DNA of 25,326 nt from a virus. This document shows, one piece after another, positions 745-17,555 of the stretch. The stretch spans positions 1 to 25,326 of the IMG/VR virus record IMGVR_UViG_3300049728_000165; one strand, given 5' to 3'. The notes under the pieces are model-generated. The model was given only the letters and a program-made list of their open reading frames with translations. It was not told the origin of the DNA and searched no databases. A program made the position numbers and the translations under genes. Every line of letters begins with the position of its first letter. The first letter of the stretch is position 1.

Positions 745-1037
745 CCGCCCGCGCCCTCGCTCAGGTCCGACAGCGGGTCGAGGCCATCGAGACCGCCGGG
801 ATCGATGCGGCCGCCGTTGCCGACTTCATCCTGGTTGACCCCCAGTGCGCCTTCCTGCGCCGGGGGGTGCCCTGGCTGGCCGTAGCGGCCCGCAGGGCGG
901 TCCAGGAGCTTCGCCAGCTGGACAGGACGCTAGAGGCCGTGCTGGACCAGCTCGACCGCATAGAGCACCCCGCCGGCCCCGGGACCAACCCCCCGGGCCC
1001 GTTTCCCTCGCTGCATGACCCGAAAGGACACTTTTGA
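741..1037 (+). CDS. Small helical protein of unknown function
   Basis: This is a 98-aa protein starting at GTG 741, which overlaps the preceding stop as GTGA. The frame is open further upstream, but the overlap start fits the operon best. Residues about 1-75 are predicted mostly helical with heptad-like leucines (LRQLDRTLEAVLDQLDRIE), followed by a proline- and glycine-rich tail. It ends as TGATG, sharing its last base with the start of the Prim-Pol gene. I do not recognise the family. Such small proteins directly ahead of Prim-Pol genes are common in phage satellites, often with unknown roles. Confidence 0.6.
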   Translation: MTARALAQVRQRVEAIETAGIDAAAVADFILVDPQCAFLRRGVPWLAVAARRAVQELRQLDRTLEAVLDQLDRIEHPAGPGTNPPGPFPSLHDPKGHF

Positions 1038-3256
1038 TGGAGACCAATCTCCAGCATTCCCTCGACCAAGCTCTGTCCCTGGCCTCCCGGGGCTTCTGGG
1101 TTTTTCCGCTCAAACCCGGGGCCAAGGAGCCGGCCTACTCAGGCTGGCAGGACCAGGCCACCCGCGACCCCGAGGCCATCAACCGCTGGTTCGCCAAGCA
1201 CCCCTACAACGTGGGCATCTACACCGGGAAGTATGGCGACAGCCAGGCGCTCTGCGTCATCGACGTGGACGTGAAGGGCGACAAGCGCGGCGACCTCTCG
1301 ATCATCGATCTGGACTTCGACGGCTTCGACATCCCGGAGACCCTCCGGCACACGACCCCGACCGGCGGCCAGCACATCATCTACGCCTGTGACGAGCCCC
1401 TGAAGCAGGGCGTCGAGGTTCTGGGCAGCGGCCTGGACATCCGCAGTCGCGGCGGCTACATCGTCGCCCCGGGCTCGGTCCTGGACGGCAAGCCATACGA
1501 GACCCAGGAGGGCCCGCAACTGCCCGTGCCCTGCCCTGCGTGGCTGGTGGAGAAGCTCGGCGCGGAGAAGGCCCCCCGGCGGCGCGGCACCACGGCCCTG
1601 CCCGGCGTGGTCCGCGAGACGGCCCTGGCCCGGGCCAAGGAATGGCTGCTGGAGCGCGCCCCCCTGGCCGTCCAGAACGAGGGCGGCGACATCACCACCT
1701 TCAAGGTCGCAGCCGTGGTCAAGGACTACGGCTGCGACCAGGACGACACCCTGGACCTGATGCTGGAGTTCTGGAACGACCGGTGCTCGCCGCCCTGGGA
1801 CCTGGATGAGCTGGCCACCAAGGTGACGAACGCATTCAACCACGGGGAGAACCCCCAGGGCGCAGCCGCGCCCGAGGCGGCCTTCGAGGCCGTGCCCCAG
1901 CCCCCGCCGCCGGCCGCAGGGCAGGAGCCTGCCCCGTCGCATCCAGTCCTTGCGCTGAACGCCGAGTATGCCTACGTAGCGGGCGCTGCCGGCCGGGTGC
2001 TTCGCGAAACAACCGACTCTGAGGGCAACCCGGCGCTTCAGCACATGCAGGTGAAGGCCTTCCACGAATTCATGGCCAACCGGAAGATTAGCCTGGGCGA
2101 TGGCAAGGAGGCCGACCTCTCCAAGCTATGGATGGAACACCCTGATAGGCGCACCTTCGACGGGCTCGTCTTTTCCCCCGGCACGGACATGGGGCCCCGC
2201 TGGTACAACCTGTGGCGCGGGTTCAAGGTGGACCCGGTGGAGGGGCCCGCCAGCCATCCGGCCTTGGACATGTTCCTCGAGCATGCCCTCCAGAACGTCT
2301 GCGGCGGTAACCAGGAGCATTTTCGCTGGCTCATGGGATGGTTCGCGCACCTCATCCAGAAGCCCGGGGAGAAACCCCTGGTGGCCTTGGTCATGAAGGG
2401 CCGGAAGGGCACCGGCAAGAACGCCCTGATCGAGCGGGTAGGATACCTCCTGGGCCCTCATGCCCTCGTCGCCGATGATCAGCGCTACCTCACCTCCCAG
2501 TTCAACGGGCACATGGCGGCCAACCTGCTCCTCGTCCTGGATGAAGCTGTCTGGAGCGGCGACAAGAGCGCCGAGGGCAGGCTCAAGGGGCTGATCACGG
2601 GGGCCAAGCACAACATCGAGAAGAAGGGGCTCGAGATTTTCTCCGTCAACAACCTGACGCGAGTGGTCATGCTCTCCAACGAACGCTGGGTATGCCCCGC
2701 CTCGGCCGATGAGCGGCGCTTCGCTGTGTTTGAGGTGGGCGACGGCCGGCGGCAGGACCGCCAGTTCTTCCGGTCCATGCGGGAGGGAATGGAGCGGGGC
2801 GGCTACTCCCACCTGCTGCGCTACCTGCTGGACTTCGACCTGACCGGCATCGACGTGAACGCAGCGCCGGACACCGATGGCCTGCGCGACCAGAAGCGCG
2901 AGTCTTTGCGCGGCCCTGAGCGTTTCCTGGCGGAAATCATCGAGTTGGGCGAGATTCAGCTCAAGGGCAACGGGTTCGCGCAGAGCATTGACTGGGTTGA
3001 TGAGGAGGTCGGTGTGCCCAAGGGCGCGATCTACACCGCCTTCACCGAGGCGTCCAGGCTCAGGTATCGGGAATACAGCTGCGTAAGTGAGAGTCAGTTC
3101 TGGAAGACGTTCGGCAAGGTGCTGAAATGCGGTGGGGTCACCCTGAGGGAAGAACGGCCAAGGGGCGAAGCTGGAAGCTCACGGGGCCGGGTCAAGGTGT
3201 TCCCGCCGCTCTCGGTGGCCGGGAAAGCCCTCGCCAATTACCTAAGCGGGAACTGA
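1037..3256 (+). CDS. Bifunctional Prim-Pol primase-polymerase / DUF5906-like SF3 helicase
   Basis: This 739-aa replication protein should prime and unwind DNA at the element's own origin. The N-terminal archaeo-eukaryotic primase (Prim-Pol, PF09250 type) covers about residues 8-175. Its metal-binding D-x-D is D76/D78 in VIDVD, the TPTGGQH motif is at 107-113, and DIRSRGGYIVAPGS is at 134-147. A linker rich in alanine and proline (about 275-305) leads to a D5/DUF5906-like superfamily 3 helicase. Its Walker A is GRKGTGKN at 455-462 and its Walker B LVLDEA has D502/E503, followed by a polar motif ending in LSNERW, typical of virus and plasmid helicases. ATG 1037 overlaps the previous stop; a TTG three bases earlier is less likely. 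It is intact and followed at once by a dense GGTCCA repeat cluster, the probable origin. The primase differs in type from that at 15,039. Confidence 0.9.
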   Translation: METNLQHSLDQALSLASRGFWVFPLKPGAKEPAYSGWQDQATRDPEAINRWFAKHPYNVGIYTGKYGDSQALCVIDVDVKGDKRGDLSIIDLDFDGFDIPETLRHTTPTGGQHIIYACDEPLKQGVEVLGSGLDIRSRGGYIVAPGSVLDGKPYETQEGPQLPVPCPAWLVEKLGAEKAPRRRGTTALPGVVRETALARAKEWLLERAPLAVQNEGGDITTFKVAAVVKDYGCDQDDTLDLMLEFWNDRCSPPWDLDELATKVTNAFNHGENPQGAAAPEAAFEAVPQPPPPAAGQEPAPSHPVLALNAEYAYVAGAAGRVLRETTDSEGNPALQHMQVKAFHEFMANRKISLGDGKEADLSKLWMEHPDRRTFDGLVFSPGTDMGPRWYNLWRGFKVDPVEGPASHPALDMFLEHALQNVCGGNQEHFRWLMGWFAHLIQKPGEKPLVALVMKGRKGTGKNALIERVGYLLGPHALVADDQRYLTSQFNGHMAANLLLVLDEAVWSGDKSAEGRLKGLITGAKHNIEKKGLEIFSVNNLTRVVMLSNERWVCPASADERRFAVFEVGDGRRQDRQFFRSMREGMERGGYSHLLRYLLDFDLTGIDVNAAPDTDGLRDQKRESLRGPERFLAEIIELGEIQLKGNGFAQSIDWVDEEVGVPKGAIYTAFTEASRLRYREYSCVSESQFWKTFGKVLKCGGVTLREERPRGEAGSSRGRVKVFPPLSVAGKALANYLSGN

Positions 3257-3321: not shown

Positions 3322-3583
3322 GGTCCAGGTCGGTCCAGGTGGAATCGGCCACCCTGGACCGCGCAAACCCGCGCCACCATTGGCTTGGTCCAATGGTCCA
3401 GGGGGACCGGGGGGTTCTGAAACCCCTATATATATTCCTTCCCTTCTATCTATCCCTAGTCCTACTGATCCTATATATAACTTCTATTTTCTATTGGACC
3501 ACCTGGACCACCTGGACCAAAGCAGTAGTGGTGCGGGTTTGCGCGGTCCAGGTTGGTGGAAAGAACCTGGACCAGCCTGGACC
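3322..3583. repeat. Putative replication origin: 11 GGTCCA/TGGACC iterons around an AT-rich core
   Basis: Eleven copies of GGTCCA or its complement lie at 3322, 3332, 3355, 3387, 3395, 3495, 3504, 3513, 3545, 3568 and 3578, many extended to GGTCCAGGT/ACCTGGACC. Two 39-base arms, 3354-3392 and 3513-3551, are inverted copies with 34 of 39 matches. The 120-base spacer between them is the most AT-rich stretch nearby (about 3420-3490). Iterons in both orientations beside a low-melting region, directly after a primase-helicase gene, is the usual form of a phage or satellite origin. The function is inferred; the repeats themselves are read directly. Confidence 0.75.
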
Positions 3584-3642: not shown

Positions 3643-3920
3643 CTGGACTGGCTACCCCGAAGGTCGCCAGCAGGGCGGAAATTCCAGGCCAGTGGCAACA
3701 GATGTCAACGCGGGCCACGTCGTGATCCTTCGTCGTGATCGGGCACCAGCGGCGACGGGTAACTGGAATGGGGACACGCTGCCGGGAGGGGCCCGAAGCT
3801 GCAGGCCTTCCTTGTTCTGGACTGGCAACCTACGAGGCCGCCAGCGGGATGGAAATTCCAGGCGATTGGCAACAGATGTCAACACGGGGCACCCTGCTAT
3901 TTGGCAACATTACGTCAACA
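3643..3920. repeat. Imperfect 75-bp direct repeats with GGCAACA/GTCAACA half-sites
   Basis: The segments at about 3643-3718 and 3817-3893 are direct repeats, about 80 percent identical, both ending in a near-identical block containing GGCAACAGATGTCAAC. Within them, and once more at 3903-3920, a GGCAACA is followed three or four bases later by GTCAACA (pairs at 3694/3704, 3868/3878 and 3903/3914). The third pair sits about 80 bases before the ATG at 3998. These could be binding sites of a replication initiator or a repressor of the 3998 gene. The roughly 740 bases from 3257 to 3997 hold no supported gene. Confidence 0.55.
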
Positions 3921-6270: not shown

Positions 6271-6393
6271 CGTGTTCGCATCGTGTCCTGTTCATGTTGG
6301 ACTGGCAGGGGGCGGGGCTGTGGCTGACGTTGCCCGCTTTGGGCCTGATCTGATCAGCTCGGCATAGAATCCATCCATCGGCCGGAGGGGTCC

Positions 6394-6582
6394 ATGACCA
6401 CCCAGGAAGCGACGGAGGCCCTGGTGGAGCACCTGGAAGATGTTCTGCGGCACTTGGCCTATGAGAACCCTGTCCCACCCGGCTCATGCTGCGCCTGCCT
6501 GCAGGACGTGGATACCCGGGGGCACCTCCCTAGCTGCGCTATCCATCTGGCCTTGATCGCGATTGAGGATTGGCGGGAGTAG
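6394..6582 (+). CDS. Small Cys-containing hypothetical protein
   Basis: This 62-aa protein starts at ATG 6394, with GGAGGGG about 4 bases upstream, a strong ribosome site. The first 25 residues form an acidic helix (EATEALVEHLEDVLRHL). The middle holds CCAC and a further cysteine followed by a histidine (CAIH), possibly a zinc site. The C-terminus is a hydrophobic helix ending EDWRE. No family recognised. It stands alone downstream of the GTTCC repeat cluster and upstream of a truncated Rha gene in the same direction. Short phage-type genes with this layout are often of unknown function. Confidence 0.55.
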   Translation: MTTQEATEALVEHLEDVLRHLAYENPVPPGSCCACLQDVDTRGHLPSCAIHLALIAIEDWRE

Positions 6583-6634
6583 TCAGGGCTGGGCCATGCC
6601 CTGCAACCCGGCGTCCCTGGGCGGCGAGGACGGC

Positions 6635-6844
6635 ATGCTGGTCACCGTCCAGGGCATCGCACCCGTCACCACCTCTCCGGCCCTCGCGTCGGGCCTGGGG
6701 GTTCAACCCAAGAACGTGCTGGAGTTGGTTCGCAAGTGTGGGGCCGACCTGAAGGCGTTCGACTTGGTCCGATTTGAAATCGCGGCAAGACCCGCCGGTC
6801 GGCACGGGAGAGGGGACACCGAGTTCGCCATCCTCAATGAGTAG
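6635..6844 (+). pseudogene. Truncated Rha-family gene, copy 2
   Basis: From ATG 6635 (an earlier in-frame ATG is at 6596) the frame reads MLVTVQGIAPVTTSPALASG, then LGVQPKNVLELVRKC, and ends TEFAILNE before a TAG at 6842-6844. Copy 1 continues at this point with PQATLLVTYS. Here the codon after GAG is TAG and a few matching bases (CAGGCGA) follow before similarity is lost at the end of the convergent 344-aa gene. The product would be about 69 aa, only the first two-thirds of a Rha domain. It preserves the intact reading in the stretch where copy 1 has lost a base, so it serves as the reference for that frameshift. Confidence 0.65.
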
Positions 6845-6851
6845 CAGGCGA

Positions 6852-7886
6852 TCATTGCGGCGGTTTCATCCCGATTGTCATATTCGGCATCTCGCTGAGC
6901 GTTTCTGACGGTCCGGGTTCAGGGATTTCGTCTTCAATCACACTCGAAATTAGCGGGGCATGACTCGGTCCTGGTGGCTCACCAACGCGCACCAATACCC
7001 ATTTCGGCTGGCCCGCCTTCTTGCTTCCGGCCTTTCGTTTTCTCTCAGCCCGGAATGTTGCTAGGCAACGTTTCTCAATCCACGACGCCAGTTCATGGGT
7101 GTCAAGGCCCAGGTCTAGTTGTCCGTGGATCACCTTTCTCCCTTCTGGTTGAAACTCAAATTTCCTGCTGAGCATGAAGAGCCCAGCCAGGTTGCCGAGG
7201 AGATCGGTTTCGTCCTCTGCGAGATTTGTCCTCTGAACCCAATGGGAGGCAGCCGCAATTTCCTTCTCGTCTAGGTATGCATCCTTTTCAGAGGTCCACA
7301 CCCTGAACGTTGCACCGGCCAAATCGACCGTTTCCAGAAAATCCCGCAAGGCCTGTGCAGTGCCGCCATCTAAGGTTTTCATCTTGTCGATGAATTCCTT
7401 TTCACTTCCCGTCCTGGCGAGGTCCACGACTTCTTGTATTTCCTGAATGGCCTGCGCCATGTGGCTGGGCCCCTGCAGGATGCCGCCTTCGGGCTGCACT
7501 TCCTCCAGAACGAACCCAAACGATCCGCGCGCAACGTCTACGATGGCCATATGTGGTGGCGGGGGAAGCATCCCCCTGCTGTTTGCCTTCGCCAGGGCAG
7601 CACCCCTGCGGTGGATGGCGCGCTGGAAACCTTCCGCCGCTTCCAGCCCGAAGTCTGCCTGGACGCCTCTTTGCCCGAACACCGGCTTGCCCCTGAAGGT
7701 TAGCTTCGTTCTGGCGAGGCGGACAGGGTTCTCTGCCACTTGGCCTAGCGCAATCAATTCAGATTCAACCTGGGCGAGCCTCGGCCCGAGAGAGGCTTGA
7801 GCGAAGGGGTTCGTGGGATGTTGAATTCGTTCAGTGAGATCTTCCTTTTCGGCAAGAAGGAAATCCCGTCGGTCCTGGTGACTCAT
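6852..7886 (-). CDS. 344-aa partner protein of a nucleotidyltransferase-like operon
   Basis: This is an intact 344-aa protein. Its N-terminus (about 1-50) is a charged helix, probably coiled-coil. The core (about 60-150) reads LTFRGKPVFGQRGVQADFG, then a helix, then DVARGSFGFVLEE; from memory this pattern occurs in a widespread uncharacterised bacterial family, but I cannot name a Pfam entry. The middle is helical and acidic, a short basic stretch (RAERKRKAGSKKAG) lies near 285-298, and the tail is proline-rich and acidic. ATG 7886 overlaps the stop of the upstream nucleotidyltransferase-like gene as ATGA, with AGAGGTGG as ribosome site, so the two are co-translated. That tight pairing suggests a two-component system such as a toxin-antitoxin or defence module. 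Codon and base composition are lower in GC than neighbours, consistent with recent arrival. Confidence 0.75.
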   Translation of the reverse strand: MSHQDRRDFLLAEKEDLTERIQHPTNPFAQASLGPRLAQVESELIALGQVAENPVRLARTKLTFRGKPVFGQRGVQADFGLEAAEGFQRAIHRRGAALAKANSRGMLPPPPHMAIVDVARGSFGFVLEEVQPEGGILQGPSHMAQAIQEIQEVVDLARTGSEKEFIDKMKTLDGGTAQALRDFLETVDLAGATFRVWTSEKDAYLDEKEIAAASHWVQRTNLAEDETDLLGNLAGLFMLSRKFEFQPEGRKVIHGQLDLGLDTHELASWIEKRCLATFRAERKRKAGSKKAGQPKWVLVRVGEPPGPSHAPLISSVIEDEIPEPGPSETLSEMPNMTIGMKPPQ

Positions 7887-8650: not shown

Positions 8651-9235
8651 CTAACGCGACACTGCTAGGGCAGCGGGCAGGGACGGCTGCCGGTGCCGCA
8701 CGTTGCCCCTGTCAGGTCCGGAGATACCGTGGACCTTGCCGCTGTCCTCGACAATGTCGCCAGCCGCCTCCAGGAACACATAGAAGTAGTGCTCCCCGCT
8801 CCCGATCAGCTTGGCGAAATCGGTGACGTGGAGCAGGCCCTCGGTGGCGGCCACGGCGTCGTAGAACTCGGCCTTGGAGGCCAGCTCCTTGGCCCGCTCG
8901 GCCACGGTGGCCAGGGTCCGGAGGGACTCGGTGAAGTCCTCGGGGACCATCACATCCAGGCCGGCGACGTTGAACGTCTTGCGCGGCGGCGGGGCGCTGT
9001 AGCTGCCGGTCTTCCGGATCGCGGGAAGCACCTCGCTGGTGACCCACTTCTTGAAGGCCTTGGCCTCGGGCTTCCGGGAACCCAGCACCAGGCTGAAAAG
9101 GCCGGACTCATTGATGATGCTGGCGTGGTTGGGCCTTCCCGCGACATCATTTGAAATGATGTTGCCCTTTTCGTCCTCGTCCACCGCAGCTTCGTCCCAG
9201 TGCGAGGCGCGGACGCCGGGGGTGCGGATCTGCGC
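8651..9235 (-). pseudogene. BRO-family antirepressor remnant, copy 2
   Basis: From about 9184 leftward the frame reads VDEDEKGNIISNDVAG, then NESGLFSLVLGSRKPEAKAF and KKWVTSEVLPAIRKTGSY: the second half of a BRO-N domain. A linker DFTESLRTLATVAERAKEL follows, and a C-terminal segment LHVTDFAKLIGSGEHYFYVF that resembles, loosely, the helix-turn-helix part of phage antirepressor KilAC domains. The first half of BRO-N (the DGEPWW and ADVCA part) is missing. Upstream in frame the DNA instead encodes QIRTPGVRASHWDEAAV, a segment also seen in copy 1. A protein of about 177 aa could be made from GTG 9184, but with half its DNA-binding domain gone it is most likely a pseudogene. Confidence 0.65.
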
Positions 9236-9246
9236 AGGGAAGCCCC

Positions 9247-9405
9247 CGGCTGGTGGCCAAGGACGTGACCGATCCCCTGGGCTACCGGTGGCACCACAAC
9301 GTCATCAGCCACGTTCCAGCGGAATGGGTGGTGGGTCGGGTCCGTTCCGACCACCCTCTTGCCGCCAGGACACGCGCTTCATCTCCGAGCAGGGGCTCCT
9401 GCATG
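9247..9405 (+). pseudogene. Inverted BRO-N fragment on the plus strand, copy 4
   Basis: The plus strand here reads LVAKDVTDPLGYRWHHNVIS, then HVPAEWV, and after a frameshift RQDTRFISEQGLL. The minus-strand gene at 9282-9905 reads VAKDVAEALGYVWKGASGS, HVPTEWVG and KMSAISEQGLYFF in the same order. This is therefore a BRO-N fragment facing the opposite way. At about 9405 the plus-strand homology stops and the sequence becomes the complement of the neighbouring copy's linker. No start codon or intact frame. Confidence 0.6.
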
Positions 9406-9905
9406 GAGGCGCGCAGCCGGTCGTAGAAGGCGGCCTTGGGGGCCATCTCCTTGGCCCGCTCGGCCACGGTGGCGAGGATCCGCAGGGACTCGGAGTAGTC
9501 CTTGGGCAGATCCAGCTCCATGCCGGCGAGGGTGAACTTCTCGGCCCCGGGGACGGCGTAGCTGCCGGTCTTCCGGATGGAAGGGAGCACCTCACCGGCC
9601 AGCCACTTCTGGAAGGGGAGGGCGGCGGGCTTGTCGGAGCGGCCGAGGAAGAAGTAGAGTCCCTGCTCGGAGATGGCGGACATCTTCTGCCGTCCGGAGG
9701 GGGTCTGAACGAAACAGGCCCCCACCCATTCCGTCGGAACGTGTGGAACGCTGCCCGAAGCCCCCTTCCAAACGTAGCCCAGGGCCTCGGCCACGTCCTT
9801 GGCCACCCACCAGGGCTCCCCGTCGCGCAGGACCGTGCGGATCGGCCGTCTTGATGGTCAGCATTTCGAATGCGACCCTTCCGAAATCCTCCTGGTCCGC
9901 CCGGT
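9282..9905 (-). pseudogene. BRO gene fused to a Rha fragment, frameshifted, copy 3
   Basis: Reading leftward from 9905, the DNA first encodes DQEDFGRVAFEM, which matches the Rha segment DLEEFGRVGFEI of copy 1 at 5577. It continues LTIKT, and then after a frameshift IRTVLRDGEPWWVAKDVAEA and LGYVWKG: a BRO-N domain. The rest is in one frame from GTG 9806: SAISEQGLYFFLGRSDKPAA, FQKWLAGEVLPSIRKTGSY, linker DYSESLRILATVAERAKEM, and a short C-terminus. The C-terminal 50 residues (from about 9420 leftward) run into the inverted copy 4 and are not a real domain. It is a dead mosaic of two regulator families. A 174-aa protein starting at GTG 9806 remains possible but would lack the first strand of BRO-N. 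Confidence 0.65.
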
Positions 9906-11848: not shown

Positions 11849-11936
11849 GGAAGGGTGGCCGAGTGGTCGATGGCAGGAGTCTTGAAAACTCCCGAGGTGC
11901 AAGCCTCCGTGGGTTCGAATCCCACCTCTTCCGCCA
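11849..11936 (+). tRNA. Intact tRNA-Ser(UGA) carried by the element
   Basis: This complete 88-base gene includes an encoded CCA. The acceptor is GGAAGGG/CTCTTCC with one G-T pair, the D-arm is GGCCGAGTGG, the anticodon stem is GGAGT/ACTCC around loop CTTGAAA (anticodon TGA), the class II variable arm is CGAGGTGCAAGCCTCCG, and the T-arm contains GGGTTCGAATCCC. It differs from the split host tRNA in stem sequences but has the same anticodon and loop. It lies inside the element, opposite in direction to the host gene, with its 3' end 7 bp from the integrase stop. It probably supplies the tRNA-Ser lost by integration. UGA-anticodon tRNA-Ser is generally needed to read UCA. Confidence 0.95.
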
Positions 11937-11943
11937 ATCACGT

Positions 11944-13242
11944 TCAGTAGCTGGCCCCCAGGGCTGCGCTGAGCATCGCACCCGACACCAGAGAGGCTTG
12001 GTCATCTGCCCGCTTCAGGACGTGGGCATAGATGGTCATGGTGATGACCGGTGTGCTGTGCCCCAGGCGCTGGGCTACCACATGCGGCTGAACACCCCCC
12101 TGCAGGAGCTGGGTGGCGTGGGTGTGCCGCAGGCTATGGAAATGCACATCAGGGAGCCCGGCCATCGTGGCGGCCCTGCTGAAGGCTTTGGTGATAGCGT
12201 CCGGGTTCTCCGGTCGGGTGAAGTCGACATCATGGATTTCGACATTGAGCGGCTGGCGCCCGCGGGCCCGGCGGATGGTGCAGGGGAAAACCAACCCGTC
12301 GACCGGGCACAATACGCCCAGGCTGGCCGCGAGGTCTTCGTGATACTGCCGGTGGGCCTTGAGGGTGCGGCACAGCCCATCGTCGATGACGATGGTGCGC
12401 CGGCTGCTCTCGTTTTTCGGGGGCTTGATCCTCAACCCGAATTTCAAGGTGCGCTCAAGCGCCTTGCTGATGCACAGGGTTTTCTTTTCGAAGTCCACGT
12501 CTGACCACCGGAGGGCCAGCAGTTCGCCCCTGCGGGCCCCGGTGCCTACCGCCACCACGGCCAGTGTGAAGAAATACTTTCCCCGAATGGCCTTGAGCAA
12601 GGTCGCGAGTTCGTCCTGCTCAAGCGCCTTGATCTGGCCTGAGTCTTCCGGGTCATCGCTCACGGCCCGCACCCGCTTGGGGTTCGGCGCCGTCACATCC
12701 TCAGCCGGGTTGCGGAGGATCACCTTTTGACGGGCTGCAGCCTTCAGGCAGGAAAACAGGGCCTGGTGGATGTGGAGGACCGTCTGAGCGGAAAGACCGG
12801 GCCGCGCATGGGGCGCATCCTCCGGGCCCTTCGTGCCGCCCATGGGGAGCCGTCCCGCGGTGAGCATGTCAGACAGGAACTTCTGGATGGTCGGGGCCGT
12901 CAGCTTCTGGATAAGGACAGAGCCAATTTTCGGGGCAACATGAGTTTCCAGGTAGCCCTTGTAACCCTCATAGGTGCGCTGGCTGACACTGGGCGCGGCG
13001 TGGTCCCGCAGCCAAGTCTGGATCCAATCGGCTAGCGTCATCTTCGACGGGTCCACGGCCGTGCCGGTGTCCACTTCGCCCATGAGGCGGCGCAGCTCCG
13101 CCTGGGCCTCCTTCTTGGTGCCGGTGCAGGTCTTGTACCTCTGCACCCGGGCGCCGGTCGCGGGGTCGCGCTCGGCATCATACTTGAGCAGGTAGGAAAC
13201 GCCCCGCTTGCCTTCGCGCTTGATGATCGACCCTCTGCTCAT
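11944..13242 (-). CDS. int: Tyrosine site-specific integrase
   Basis: This 432-aa phage-type tyrosine recombinase would integrate the element into and excise it from tRNA-Ser. An N-terminal arm-binding domain (about 1-58, with GKRGVSYLLKYDAERD) is followed by the SAM-like core-binding domain (about 65-175) and the catalytic domain (about 205-415). All catalytic residues are visible: R237 in TGARRGE, K276, H369 and R372 in HSLRH, H395 in LGHS, and nucleophile Y405 in TIYAHV. Length is normal for the family. ATG 13,242 overlaps the stop of the upstream zinc-finger gene as ATGA, so the two are co-expressed. The stop lies 7 bp from the carried tRNA-Ser and about 210 bp from the attachment core, as expected for an int-attP pair. 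Confidence 0.95.
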   Translation of the reverse strand: MSRGSIIKREGKRGVSYLLKYDAERDPATGARVQRYKTCTGTKKEAQAELRRLMGEVDTGTAVDPSKMTLADWIQTWLRDHAAPSVSQRTYEGYKGYLETHVAPKIGSVLIQKLTAPTIQKFLSDMLTAGRLPMGGTKGPEDAPHARPGLSAQTVLHIHQALFSCLKAAARQKVILRNPAEDVTAPNPKRVRAVSDDPEDSGQIKALEQDELATLLKAIRGKYFFTLAVVAVGTGARRGELLALRWSDVDFEKKTLCISKALERTLKFGLRIKPPKNESSRRTIVIDDGLCRTLKAHRQYHEDLAASLGVLCPVDGLVFPCTIRRARGRQPLNVEIHDVDFTRPENPDAITKAFSRAATMAGLPDVHFHSLRHTHATQLLQGGVQPHVVAQRLGHSTPVITMTIYAHVLKRADDQASLVSGAMLSAALGASY

Positions 13243-14584: not shown

Positions 14585-15042
14585 AGGGAATGGCTTTCTT
14601 GGCACAGGCCGCGGTCGACCGGGAGATGGCTTTCCTTTCAATCGACCCGCAGGGGGTCCAGGGATTCCCCACGTACTACAAGCCCGGGTCGGGCTACCTG
14701 GCCCTGATCGGTGACGACCCGGATCCGGACCGAGATGCCAGCGTCGGCCCTGCCGGCTTCAGCGACCAAATCCTGAAGACCTACCTCGACGGCGCCCAGA
14801 CCTTCGTCATCAGCGCCGTCCTGGAGGAGGGGGCCGGGGCCATGCTCGCGACCACCGTCGCGACGTCGCCCGATCCCTTCGCCGCAATCGTGATTACCAA
14901 CCCCAGCCAGCACGCCGCCTGGACCCGGAAGATCATCGCACTGACCGGCAGGGGGCCCCGCTTCCACGTGGCGCCTGAGGGCTTCCTGGATGTCGGCGCG
15001 GAGGACGTCCTGTTCCTGAACCAGAGCAAGAGGTCACATTGA
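14581..15042 (+). CDS. Hypothetical protein between excisionase and primase
   Basis: This protein of up to 153 aa starts at GTG 14,581, overlapping the previous stop (GTGA). An ATG at 14,590 is an alternative. It contains alternating strands and helices without recognised motifs: an aspartate-rich loop DDPDPDRDAS near 46-55, hydrophobic strands TFVISAVLEE and FAAIVITN, and a tail reading EDVLFLNQSKRSH. It has no cysteines, no signal peptide and no membrane helix. It ends in TTGA overlap with the primase start, so translation is coupled in a three-gene operon. By position it may be a replication accessory or DNA-binding factor; not recognised. Confidence 0.65.
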   Translation: MKGMAFLAQAAVDREMAFLSIDPQGVQGFPTYYKPGSGYLALIGDDPDPDRDASVGPAGFSDQILKTYLDGAQTFVISAVLEEGAGAMLATTVATSPDPFAAIVITNPSQHAAWTRKIIALTGRGPRFHVAPEGFLDVGAEDVLFLNQSKRSH

Positions 15043-17555
15043 GCCAGTCAGCCCCCGCAATCACCCAGGCCCACGCCATCGAGGCGCCGGAGATGCTCCG
15101 GCCCCTGCGCGGGTGGCTGGTCTGGAAGTCTGAGCCCAACCCGAAGCGGCCGAAACCTCGCAAGGTTCCCTATTACCCTGAGACGGGCAAGCGAAGGCGG
15201 GGAAGGAACGGTACCCCAGAGGACCGGGCCCAGCTGGTCGACTTCGATACCGCGGTTGCCACCCTCCGGCGGGGCGGGTATGACGGCATCGGCTTCGCGC
15301 CCATGCCGGAATGGGGAATCGACGTCATCGACTTCGACGAGTGCATCAACAGTCACGTTGACCCTTTCATCGAACAGCTCGCGGCCGAGACCTATGTGGA
15401 GGTATCCCCCTCCGACCTAGGCGCCCACGCCTTCGTGCTGGGCGACATGCCGAACATGAAGGACCACGCCGCACCGGGTAAGTTCGGCGTCGAGGTCTTC
15501 CACGACTCCGGATTTGTCACCTTCACCGGCAAGGTGCTCCCCATCTGCCGGGTTCTCGACACCGACAACCTGGTGGGCCAGGCGGGCCCCGAGCTGGTCG
15601 CCCTGGTCGAGGCCCGGCGCCACAGCCGGGAGACCGATGGCAGCCCCGCGGAGCACTCCGAGGCGGCCAGCTTCACCCGGGCCATGGCCCTGAGGGAGGT
15701 TGATGCCGAAACCCTCGCCAGCCTGCGGGACGCCCTGCTGAGCGACTCGACCGCGGAGCTGGCCGAAGGATATGGATCCTGGGTCAACATTGGCCAGGCT
15801 CTCAAGAGTTTGGAGGAAACCTCCTTCGGATCCGAGGCACTGGACCTGTGGCATCTGTTCAGCGCACGCAGTGAGCAATACGACGGGGCGCAGGCGGAGG
15901 CCAAGTGGGACAGTTTCAGGCCCACCAAGATCACCTACAAGAGCATCTTCGACTTGGCACAGCGGAACGGGTGGACGAACCCCCGCAGCGCCCAGGGCAT
16001 GAAGGCGGGCGGCGCCGACGAATATGCCAAGCTGGAGGACCGCTCGGATATCGGGAACGCCAACTTGCTGATCAAGATCACGGGCGGCGATCTTCGCTAT
16101 GTGTGGGAGTGGAAGCGGTGGCTCTGGTGGGACGGATCCAGGTGGATTGATGACAAATCCGGCGCCGGCGCCCTGGCTGCGGCAAAGGGGATCGCCCAGC
16201 ACTATCACAAGAAGGCCGATGACCTGAAGCGCCAGGCCGCGGACGAGTCCCTGGTGGCGGCCGAGCGCAAGCGCATCAATACGGCGGCCGAGGGCGTCGA
16301 GAAGTGGGCGGTCCATTGCCGGAACAAGAAATCCATCGATGCGCTGCTGGCCATGGCATCTCGTGATAGCCGGGTCGTGGTGTCCGCGGCGGACCTCGAC
16401 CGCGACCCATTCCTGCTAGGCGTGGCGAATGGGACGATCGACCTGCGCACAGGCCAGCTGCGCGCCGCGGCCCGTGACGAGTTTGTCACGCAGCGCAGCC
16501 CCATCGCCTTCGACCGGGGCGCCGGTGCTCCACGTTTCCGCCGGTTCATTCAGGAGATCACTGGAAAGCCTCGACCGGTTGAATTCAATCACGCCACCGG
16601 GCGGCCAATTCCGGAATCGGTTATCGGCTATGTTCCCCGGCCAGCACTGGCGGATTACCTGCAGCGGGCCCTGGGCTATTGCCTCACCGGGTCGACAGCG
16701 GAACAAAAGGTGTTCATCGGTCACGGTGAGGGTTCGAACGGCAAAAGCGTGCTGTTCGACGTGGTGCAAGAGCTGGCTGGCGACTATTGCAGGACCGTCG
16801 AGCCCAAGTTCCTGATGTCCGGTGACTACCTCACCAACCCCGAGAGCCCGTCACCCGTGGCCGCGACCCTGGCGGGGGCCCGACTGGCCATTAGCTGCGA
16901 GAGCAAGGAAGGCCAGAAACTTGATATCGCCTTGATCAAGAGGCATTCCGGCGGTGGGTTTTTGACGGCCCGCGGGATGAACCAGAACACCTTCCGCTTT
17001 GCTATCACTCACAAATTGCTGTTGATGACGAATCACAAGCCAGAGCTTGAGCACTTGGATTTCGCCCTGCGCGGCCGGCTGCACCTTATCCCGTTCGATC
17101 GGAAGTGGAATCGCCCCGGAACTCCAGAGCGCGACGAATCCCTGCCGGACGGCGACCGGGATCTGATGACCGAGTTGCGGGCGGAGGCGCCTGGGATCCT
17201 GACATGGCTGATTGAAGGCGCCTCCCGATACGCCCAGGAAGGCCTGGAACCTCCCCAGGAAGTGGTGAACACCACCCGCGATTATCTGGCCGAGCAGGAT
17301 CCTGTTGGGAGGTGGCTGGAAAGCTTTGAACGCTGCGACCCCAGGCACGGGACTTCCGCCGCTGAGTTGTTCAAGCAGTTCATCACCTGGCATCGGGATG
17401 AGGACACCGGGAGCGGCGGGGCCCCTCACTCCGAAAAGGCTTTTGGTGTGGCCCTGCGCGAGCGCGGAGTGAGGAACCAAAAGAAGGAGACCGGGATGCA
17501 CTACGGGATAAAACCCTCAACCAAACCCCAAAACCTGACGGATGACGGATCATGA
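15039..17555 (+). CDS. NrS-1-type primase with PriCT-2 and P4/D5-type SF3 helicase
   Basis: This 838-aa replication protein is of the phage P4-like primase-helicase class. The N-terminal archaeo-eukaryotic primase (about 20-170) shows VIDFD with D98/D100, SPSDLGAH at 123-130, VEVF near 151-154 and FVTFTGK at 159-165, the wording of NrS-1-type primases rather than PF09250 Prim-Pol. A PriCT-2-like domain follows (about 217-310, with YGSWVNIGQALKSLE). The D5 N-terminal region (about 340-480) leads to the SF3 helicase: Walker A GHGEGSNGKS at 561-570 and a Walker B-like RLAISCE ending at E621, then LLLMTNHKPEL. Start is TTG 15,039, overlapping the upstream stop. The last 20 bases of the gene contain iterons of an inverted-repeat cluster (17,534-17,644), the likely origin. 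Confidence 0.9.
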   Translation: MSQSAPAITQAHAIEAPEMLRPLRGWLVWKSEPNPKRPKPRKVPYYPETGKRRRGRNGTPEDRAQLVDFDTAVATLRRGGYDGIGFAPMPEWGIDVIDFDECINSHVDPFIEQLAAETYVEVSPSDLGAHAFVLGDMPNMKDHAAPGKFGVEVFHDSGFVTFTGKVLPICRVLDTDNLVGQAGPELVALVEARRHSRETDGSPAEHSEAASFTRAMALREVDAETLASLRDALLSDSTAELAEGYGSWVNIGQALKSLEETSFGSEALDLWHLFSARSEQYDGAQAEAKWDSFRPTKITYKSIFDLAQRNGWTNPRSAQGMKAGGADEYAKLEDRSDIGNANLLIKITGGDLRYVWEWKRWLWWDGSRWIDDKSGAGALAAAKGIAQHYHKKADDLKRQAADESLVAAERKRINTAAEGVEKWAVHCRNKKSIDALLAMASRDSRVVVSAADLDRDPFLLGVANGTIDLRTGQLRAAARDEFVTQRSPIAFDRGAGAPRFRRFIQEITGKPRPVEFNHATGRPIPESVIGYVPRPALADYLQRALGYCLTGSTAEQKVFIGHGEGSNGKSVLFDVVQELAGDYCRTVEPKFLMSGDYLTNPESPSPVAATLAGARLAISCESKEGQKLDIALIKRHSGGGFLTARGMNQNTFRFAITHKLLLMTNHKPELEHLDFALRGRLHLIPFDRKWNRPGTPERDESLPDGDRDLMTELRAEAPGILTWLIEGASRYAQEGLEPPQEVVNTTRDYLAEQDPVGRWLESFERCDPRHGTSAAELFKQFITWHRDEDTGSGGAPHSEKAFGVALRERGVRNQKKETGMHYGIKPSTKPQNLTDDGS

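Follow-up and report, generated by a model that had tools for sequence, protein, structure and literature searches.

What is the function of a dense cluster of GGTCCA words that lies directly behind a primase-helicase gene? The cluster was found in a stretch of viral DNA of 25,326 nucleotides (IMG/VR record IMGVR_UViG_3300049728_000165, positions 1 to 25,326), which is called the window below. The initial annotation took it for a probable replication origin and proposed that the primase-helicase recognizes it by a domain of its own. In Sfi21-type streptococcal phages, the origins are located downstream of the primase gene. From comparison with related helicase loci, we consider it very probable that positions 3322-3583 are a bidirectional iteron origin, which would be bound by the upstream Prim-Pol/DUF5906 helicase via its C-terminal winged helix and would open at the AT-rich spacer.

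The array and the gene upstream

The features of this region are as follows.

1034-3256, + strand: Prim-Pol/DUF5906 (SF3-like) primase-helicase, presumed initiator (profile and PDB matches)
2834-3253, + strand: C-terminal winged-helix domain of this protein, residues 601-740, presumed iteron reader (AlphaFold2 model, fold and sequence matches)
3322-3583, no strand: GGTCCA iteron array, 11 exact words in the order ++-++---+--
3322-3400, + strand: left half-array, GGTCCA at 3322, 3332, 3387 and 3395, TGGACC at 3355
3354-3392, no strand: left 39-nt inverted arm, 34/39 complementary with 3513-3551
3401-3494, no strand: central spacer, presumed strand-opening region, 59% AT; 3427-3494 is 71% AT and holds TATATATAT
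3495-3583, - strand: right half-array, TGGACC at 3495, 3504, 3513, 3568 and 3578, GGTCCA at 3545
3513-3551, no strand: right 39-nt inverted arm, 34/39 complementary with 3354-3392

The array starts 66 bp past the primase-helicase stop (3256). Its words, five on the + strand and six on the - strand, form two half-arrays that are mirror images in word order (++-++ / ---+--), and TGGACC at 3495, 3504 and 3513 keeps a 9-bp period in the right half. Exact counts and shuffles confirmed that the word density, the 34/39 arms and the AT-rich spacer are far beyond chance, as had been claimed: the maximum of GGTCCA per 262 bp is 11 in the window and does not exceed 3 in any of its 200 dinucleotide shuffles, and the AT content of 59% in the spacer and 71% in 3427-3494 compares with 38% in the whole window. 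For any 6-mer, the maximum per 262 bp is 6 in the window without the array and 5-10 in 20 shuffles. None of 40 other 600-bp stretches of the window passed the array test described below, and a DNA match to the array was absent from the phage collection. To the right of the array, there is also a 76-nt direct repeat (83%; 3643-3718 / 3817-3892), which contains GGCAACAGATGTCAAC.

The product of 1034-3256 matches the Pfam families PF09250 (Prim-Pol, 3.8e-35) and PF19263 (DUF5906, 9.1e-19), the latter with 68.6 bits against a curated cut-off of 27.6, and it also matches phrog_1156 DNA primase (9.5e-77) and the PDB primase 6k9c/6k9e (4e-8). In the AlphaFold2 model, residues 601-740 (mean pLDDT 88.4) consist of helices and wing strands, namely a predicted winged helix. 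The P4 origin-binding domain 1ka8 (Z 4.9, rmsd 3.6, 78 aligned residues) and the winged helices of ORC, Cdc6 and Cdt1 are among its fold matches, which indicate only the fold class because all of them are below Z 8. Foldseek gave no match at E <= 0.001, and the SaPI Rep and Cch2 domains were absent from the fold-match lists, which is uninformative.

Arrays behind related helicases

To look for arrays irrespective of their word, we used a word-blind test for any 6-mer overrepresented in both orientations from -60 to +540 of the helicase stop, with shuffles and other stretches of the same loci as baselines. An initial genome scan with only the window protein found no relative, and in the alignment used to seed the first genome set, two of the seven rows had been picked for their arrays. 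In the genome scan of DUF5906 helicases, the 80 best out of 165 loci were taken, and among the 77 testable ones 51 were positive, versus 34 of 938 control stretches (Fisher 1e-43). Near-identical loci such as L146/L147 were counted separately, and some of the 51 may not be genuine, as about three would be expected by chance at the control rate of 3.6%; L131, L137, L153, L156, L177 and L202 look weakest. An independent set of Pfam family picks from 289 and 299 genomes (56 loci, L369-L424, 54 testable) gave 20 positives against 3 of 161 controls (Fisher 4e-11). Accordingly, 26/77 loci of the genome scan and 34/54 of the family-based set failed the test, as did all three lytic-type phage records (L363, L364 and L365). 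The viral scan (the best 80 of 342 loci), whose hits were for the most part full-length relatives of the window Prim-Pol protein, yielded one positive out of 77 testable loci with 16/945 among the controls, and the GGTCCA array was missing in all four first homologues. Thus, the conservation of repeat clusters beside orthologous primases that the initial annotation called for was missing from the nearest orthologues but present in the wider helicase family and with proteins sharing the C-terminal domain of the window protein. The origin reading itself gains support from this comparison, that is, from the frequency of arrays in the two helicase-family sets and from their shared layout.

The GGTCCA word was also searched for directly. 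An early scan for three copies (at least 120 stretches) hit mostly collagen-like coding repeats, as judged by eye, and after it only non-coding clusters in two orientations were taken further. The two-orientation pattern (a pair of words, a gap of 80-110 and a second pair in the opposite orientation) was found in 70 viral stretches, some of which are coding collagen-like repeats. In at least 21 of the 70, the 3' end of a helicase gene faces the array; 18 of these helicases match the DUF5906 profile (L295, L296, L300, L307, L315, L318, L324-L327, L331, L333, L334, L338, L339, L351, L354 and L115) and three match D5-like queries (L319, L328 and L332). The word order of L333 is ++-++---+--, identical to that of the window, and that of L307, L326 and L351 is ++-+++---+--, which is nearly so. 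In L305, L317, L320 and L348, the GGTCCA array follows a long open frame, and the C-termini of the frames in L305 and L348 have a common motif like RVARCL(R/K)A(H/N)GWKQYKAREG.

Relatives of the helicase are encoded on ten plasmid records, five of which were examined. Three of the five pass the array test: a Roseomonas plasmid of 9.7 kb, whose record has no stronger repeat than the array, Vibrio pMP1 of 7.6 kb, and E. coli pEC224_4, in which the array comes after small genes and a RepB gene is also present. The other two, pMNOD07 and pTH2c, failed the test with the layout still visible, as +++--- in pMNOD07 and as words flanking an AT-rich center in pTH2c. We do not claim the helicase as the sole replication gene of these plasmids, since their gene tables are incomplete. 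A second two-orientation array, of nine GGTACA, lies away from the helicase gene in pMP1 (L361) at about 6300-7200.

It is evident that the words vary by locus, including GGTCCA, TGTCCAACCT, TGTCCCACCT, TGTCCTACCT, GTCATAGGT, TGTCCGGG, GTCCTAGG, GGTAAC, TGTGCA, GGACGT and more. On the other hand, the layout recurs across many bacterial viruses, prophages and a few small plasmids (++++++---+--, +--+++---+-- and ++-+++---+--), and the tandem words keep a 9-bp period in most arrays. A universally AT-rich center was rejected, because the AT content of the center exceeded that of the locus in only 29 of 39 arrays, with a mean excess of 0.05; one of the 39, L180, has overlapping center words and no usable gap. 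Instead, 38 of the 52 positive loci contain, within 400 bp past the stop, a run of 12 or more alternating purines and pyrimidines. Among array-negative loci the count was 6 of 102, and among the 1010 control stretches the share was 5.3%. Such a run lies between the + and - triads in all 30 clear-layout arrays, which are rows picked for a clear word out of the 52. In most alphaproteobacterial arrays it is an alternating CG/TG tract, 12-23 nt long in L154, L159, L165, L175, L193, L195, L206 and others. Alternating CG/TG tracts are prone to form Z-DNA. The center of the window has only TATATATAT as an alternating tract and is AT-rich instead.

The C-terminal domain and the word

The different parts of the window protein have different nearest relatives. 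The N-terminal and helicase parts are nearest to array-less Prim-Pol phages: the helicase part is 57-64% identical to the 25 best matches listed, 24 of which are array-less, and in the helicase tree the window and L283, whose array is built on a different word (ATCCGAC), are the sole positives in a starred set of 25 rows. Among the ten best matches of the C-terminal 140 residues, eight are array loci (including two selected for their arrays), one is L194, which has five GGTCCA words and is below the test threshold, and one is negative. This combination of an array-less-type helicase with an array-type C-terminal domain is consistent with a swapped recognition module in the window. The idea that the primase-helicase reads the words by a domain of its own is supported by comparison, with the array being linked to the C-terminal domain.

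To examine covariation, we used 42 rows with words assigned by hand from the consensus, taken from the 52 positives (51 genome, 1 viral) and the window after omission of 11 without a clear GTCC-like word or being near copies. Word distance correlated with C-terminal distance when helicase distance was given (partial r 0.18, 11/1000 permutations), and its correlation with helicase distance when C-terminal distance was given was lower (partial r 0.09, 138/1000 permutations). Residue 691 falls in the predicted recognition helix (686-698). In 35 of 37 rows, Thr in this column coincides with C at position 7 of the word, a post hoc link with two independent supported pairs. The columns of high mutual information are likewise post hoc and phylogenetically confounded, and helicase positions are also among the top ones. 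Tree label counts did not separate the C-terminal tree from the helicase tree (15 vs 14 changes), and hence they do not enter the argument for the C-terminal domain as the carrier of the trait. The words are more likely recognized by the C-terminal winged-helix domain than by the Prim-Pol domain.

Origin reading, its alternatives and the rest of the window

Based on these results, we propose that the Prim-Pol/DUF5906 helicase binds the GGTCCA words through its C-terminal winged helix and that the oppositely oriented half-arrays would load two helicase assemblies, face to face across the spacer. The AT-rich spacer would then melt, the N-terminal Prim-Pol domain would prime, and a host polymerase would continue. 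We infer binding, loading, melting and priming from SaPI Rep and SCCmec Cch2, in which the mechanism is already known. In SaPI Rep and Cch2, the C-terminal domain reads iterons directly downstream of its own gene (PMC7581432). In PICIs, the origin is found 3' of rep, where two sets of iterons flank an AT-rich region, and the rep-ori of EcCICFT073 drives plasmid replication (PMC6092414). The window resembles these SaPI/PICI systems (SaPIbov1, SaPI5 and EcCICFT073) in that its origin candidate is directly 3' of the helicase gene, in that its two word sets flank a 59-71% AT spacer and in that primase and helicase are fused, as in some of them (PMC6092414 and PMC7581432). It differs from them in that the initiator is a Prim-Pol-DUF5906 protein or, at other loci, a DUF5906 helicase, that the arrays reside mostly on viral contigs, bacterial genome contigs and some plasmids of Pseudomonadota, and that most arrays center on an alternating purine-pyrimidine tract that is not clearly AT-rich. 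SCCmec Cch2 is similarly a D5-like helicase, whose isolated C-terminal domain binds repeats directly downstream, but PMC7581432 describes just three iterons of 5 nt and a separate, polymerase-based primase complex. Phage P4 alpha, which acts with iterons as well, is also a primase-helicase with a winged-helix origin-binding domain, to which 1ka8 above belongs, but its primase is of TOPRIM type (PMC4234260).

The strong inverted repeat of the window raises the alternative of an origin read by its structure, as in pRN1 of Sulfolobus: the protein would assemble on a stem-loop of the inverted arms and the words would be a by-product of the palindrome. According to PMC4234260, the pRN1 replicase ORF904, likewise a Prim-Pol, SF3 and winged-helix protein, needs a 100-bp stem-loop downstream of its own gene, an origin described without iterons, and a stem-loop origin was also proposed for phage BIP-1, a near-identical relative of BPP-1. 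In accordance with this, the strand of the window folds much more stably than shuffled sequence (-81.4 kcal/mol, z -13.4), and the inverted repeat reaches 71-nt arms (3322-3392 / 3513-3583, 80% paired), which pair not only at 24/24 positions within words but also at 33/47 outside them. However, we did not find a conserved stem across 38 arrays, in which, with 2-base margins masked, 795 of the 2494 cells outside the words are paired, a near-random median of 0.31 per array, and the words and their spacing are kept. Therefore, the words rather than a stem seem to be the conserved unit; they are tandem direct repeats of 9-bp period in most arrays. In BPP-1 (L425), the fold of the stretch right behind the primase stop is on a par with shuffles (z -0.2), and a perfect 2+/2- array of GCCTCGTTT with a 9-bp period around an AT-rich center was noticed post hoc about 470-570 nt past the stop of bbp29 (primase), which is a candidate origin in this model phage. 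Thus, a structure-read origin seems improbable.

Even less probable is an operator array, that is, sites bound by a repressor or by the helicase for control of the replication or late operon. At some loci the array does lie at the end of the replication genes and ahead of late genes (terminase or a NusG-like gene), but the array is symmetric, lies on the 3' side of the helicase gene and stays there where another gene comes next; a dual role as origin and operator may exist. We regard a packaging signal (pac/cos) for terminase as the most improbable: terminase-like genes were seen by eye within a few kb past the array in L045, L067 and L034, but the terminase of the window is about 14 kb from the array, past a tRNA-Ser/integrase junction, and two array-bearing plasmids have no terminase in their incomplete gene tables.

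The iteron origin read by the winged helix would provide a sequence-only rule for locating replication origins in many temperate phages and plasmids, and it counters the printed claim that such a layout is peculiar to phage-inducible islands. This suggests one initiation module common to satellites and phages. We tentatively extend it to a large unrecognized class of phage, prophage and plasmid origins with a fixed layout, a 6-9 bp word diversifying with the winged helix as a readable protein-DNA code of many mutually orthogonal pairs, and a Z-prone opener in most GC-rich members. The arrays also offer naturally occurring initiator-word pairs that may be orthogonal, and a recognition code could be read from them. 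The spread beyond satellites, the diversification of the word and the Z-prone tract at the center of most arrays appear to be new as judged from the open-licence literature searched (subscription papers and preprints excluded), where no title or beginning of an abstract described this array class in phages of Alphaproteobacteria.

Finally, the window may be divided into two elements by an attachment site, marked by the following features.

11849-11936: tRNA-Ser(TGA), complete, 7 bp from the adjoining integrase
11944-13242: tyrosine integrase

Because the tRNA-Ser adjoins the integrase, the half with the array (1 to about 11.8 kb) and the half with the terminase may be different elements; the integrase, TerS and TerL are all to the right of the tRNA-Ser. 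No capsid or tail family was found among the window proteins scanned. A second primase-helicase (15039-17555; PriCT_2, D5_N and weak DUF5906) lies just ahead of the terminase genes, and no array was detected near it (0/40 control stretches of the window). In the left half, two tandem anti-repressor-like genes at 8651-9806 show partial duplication with repeats of 137 nt (80%) and 83 nt (77%), and further repeats related to this duplication are present at 5.2-6.8 kb.
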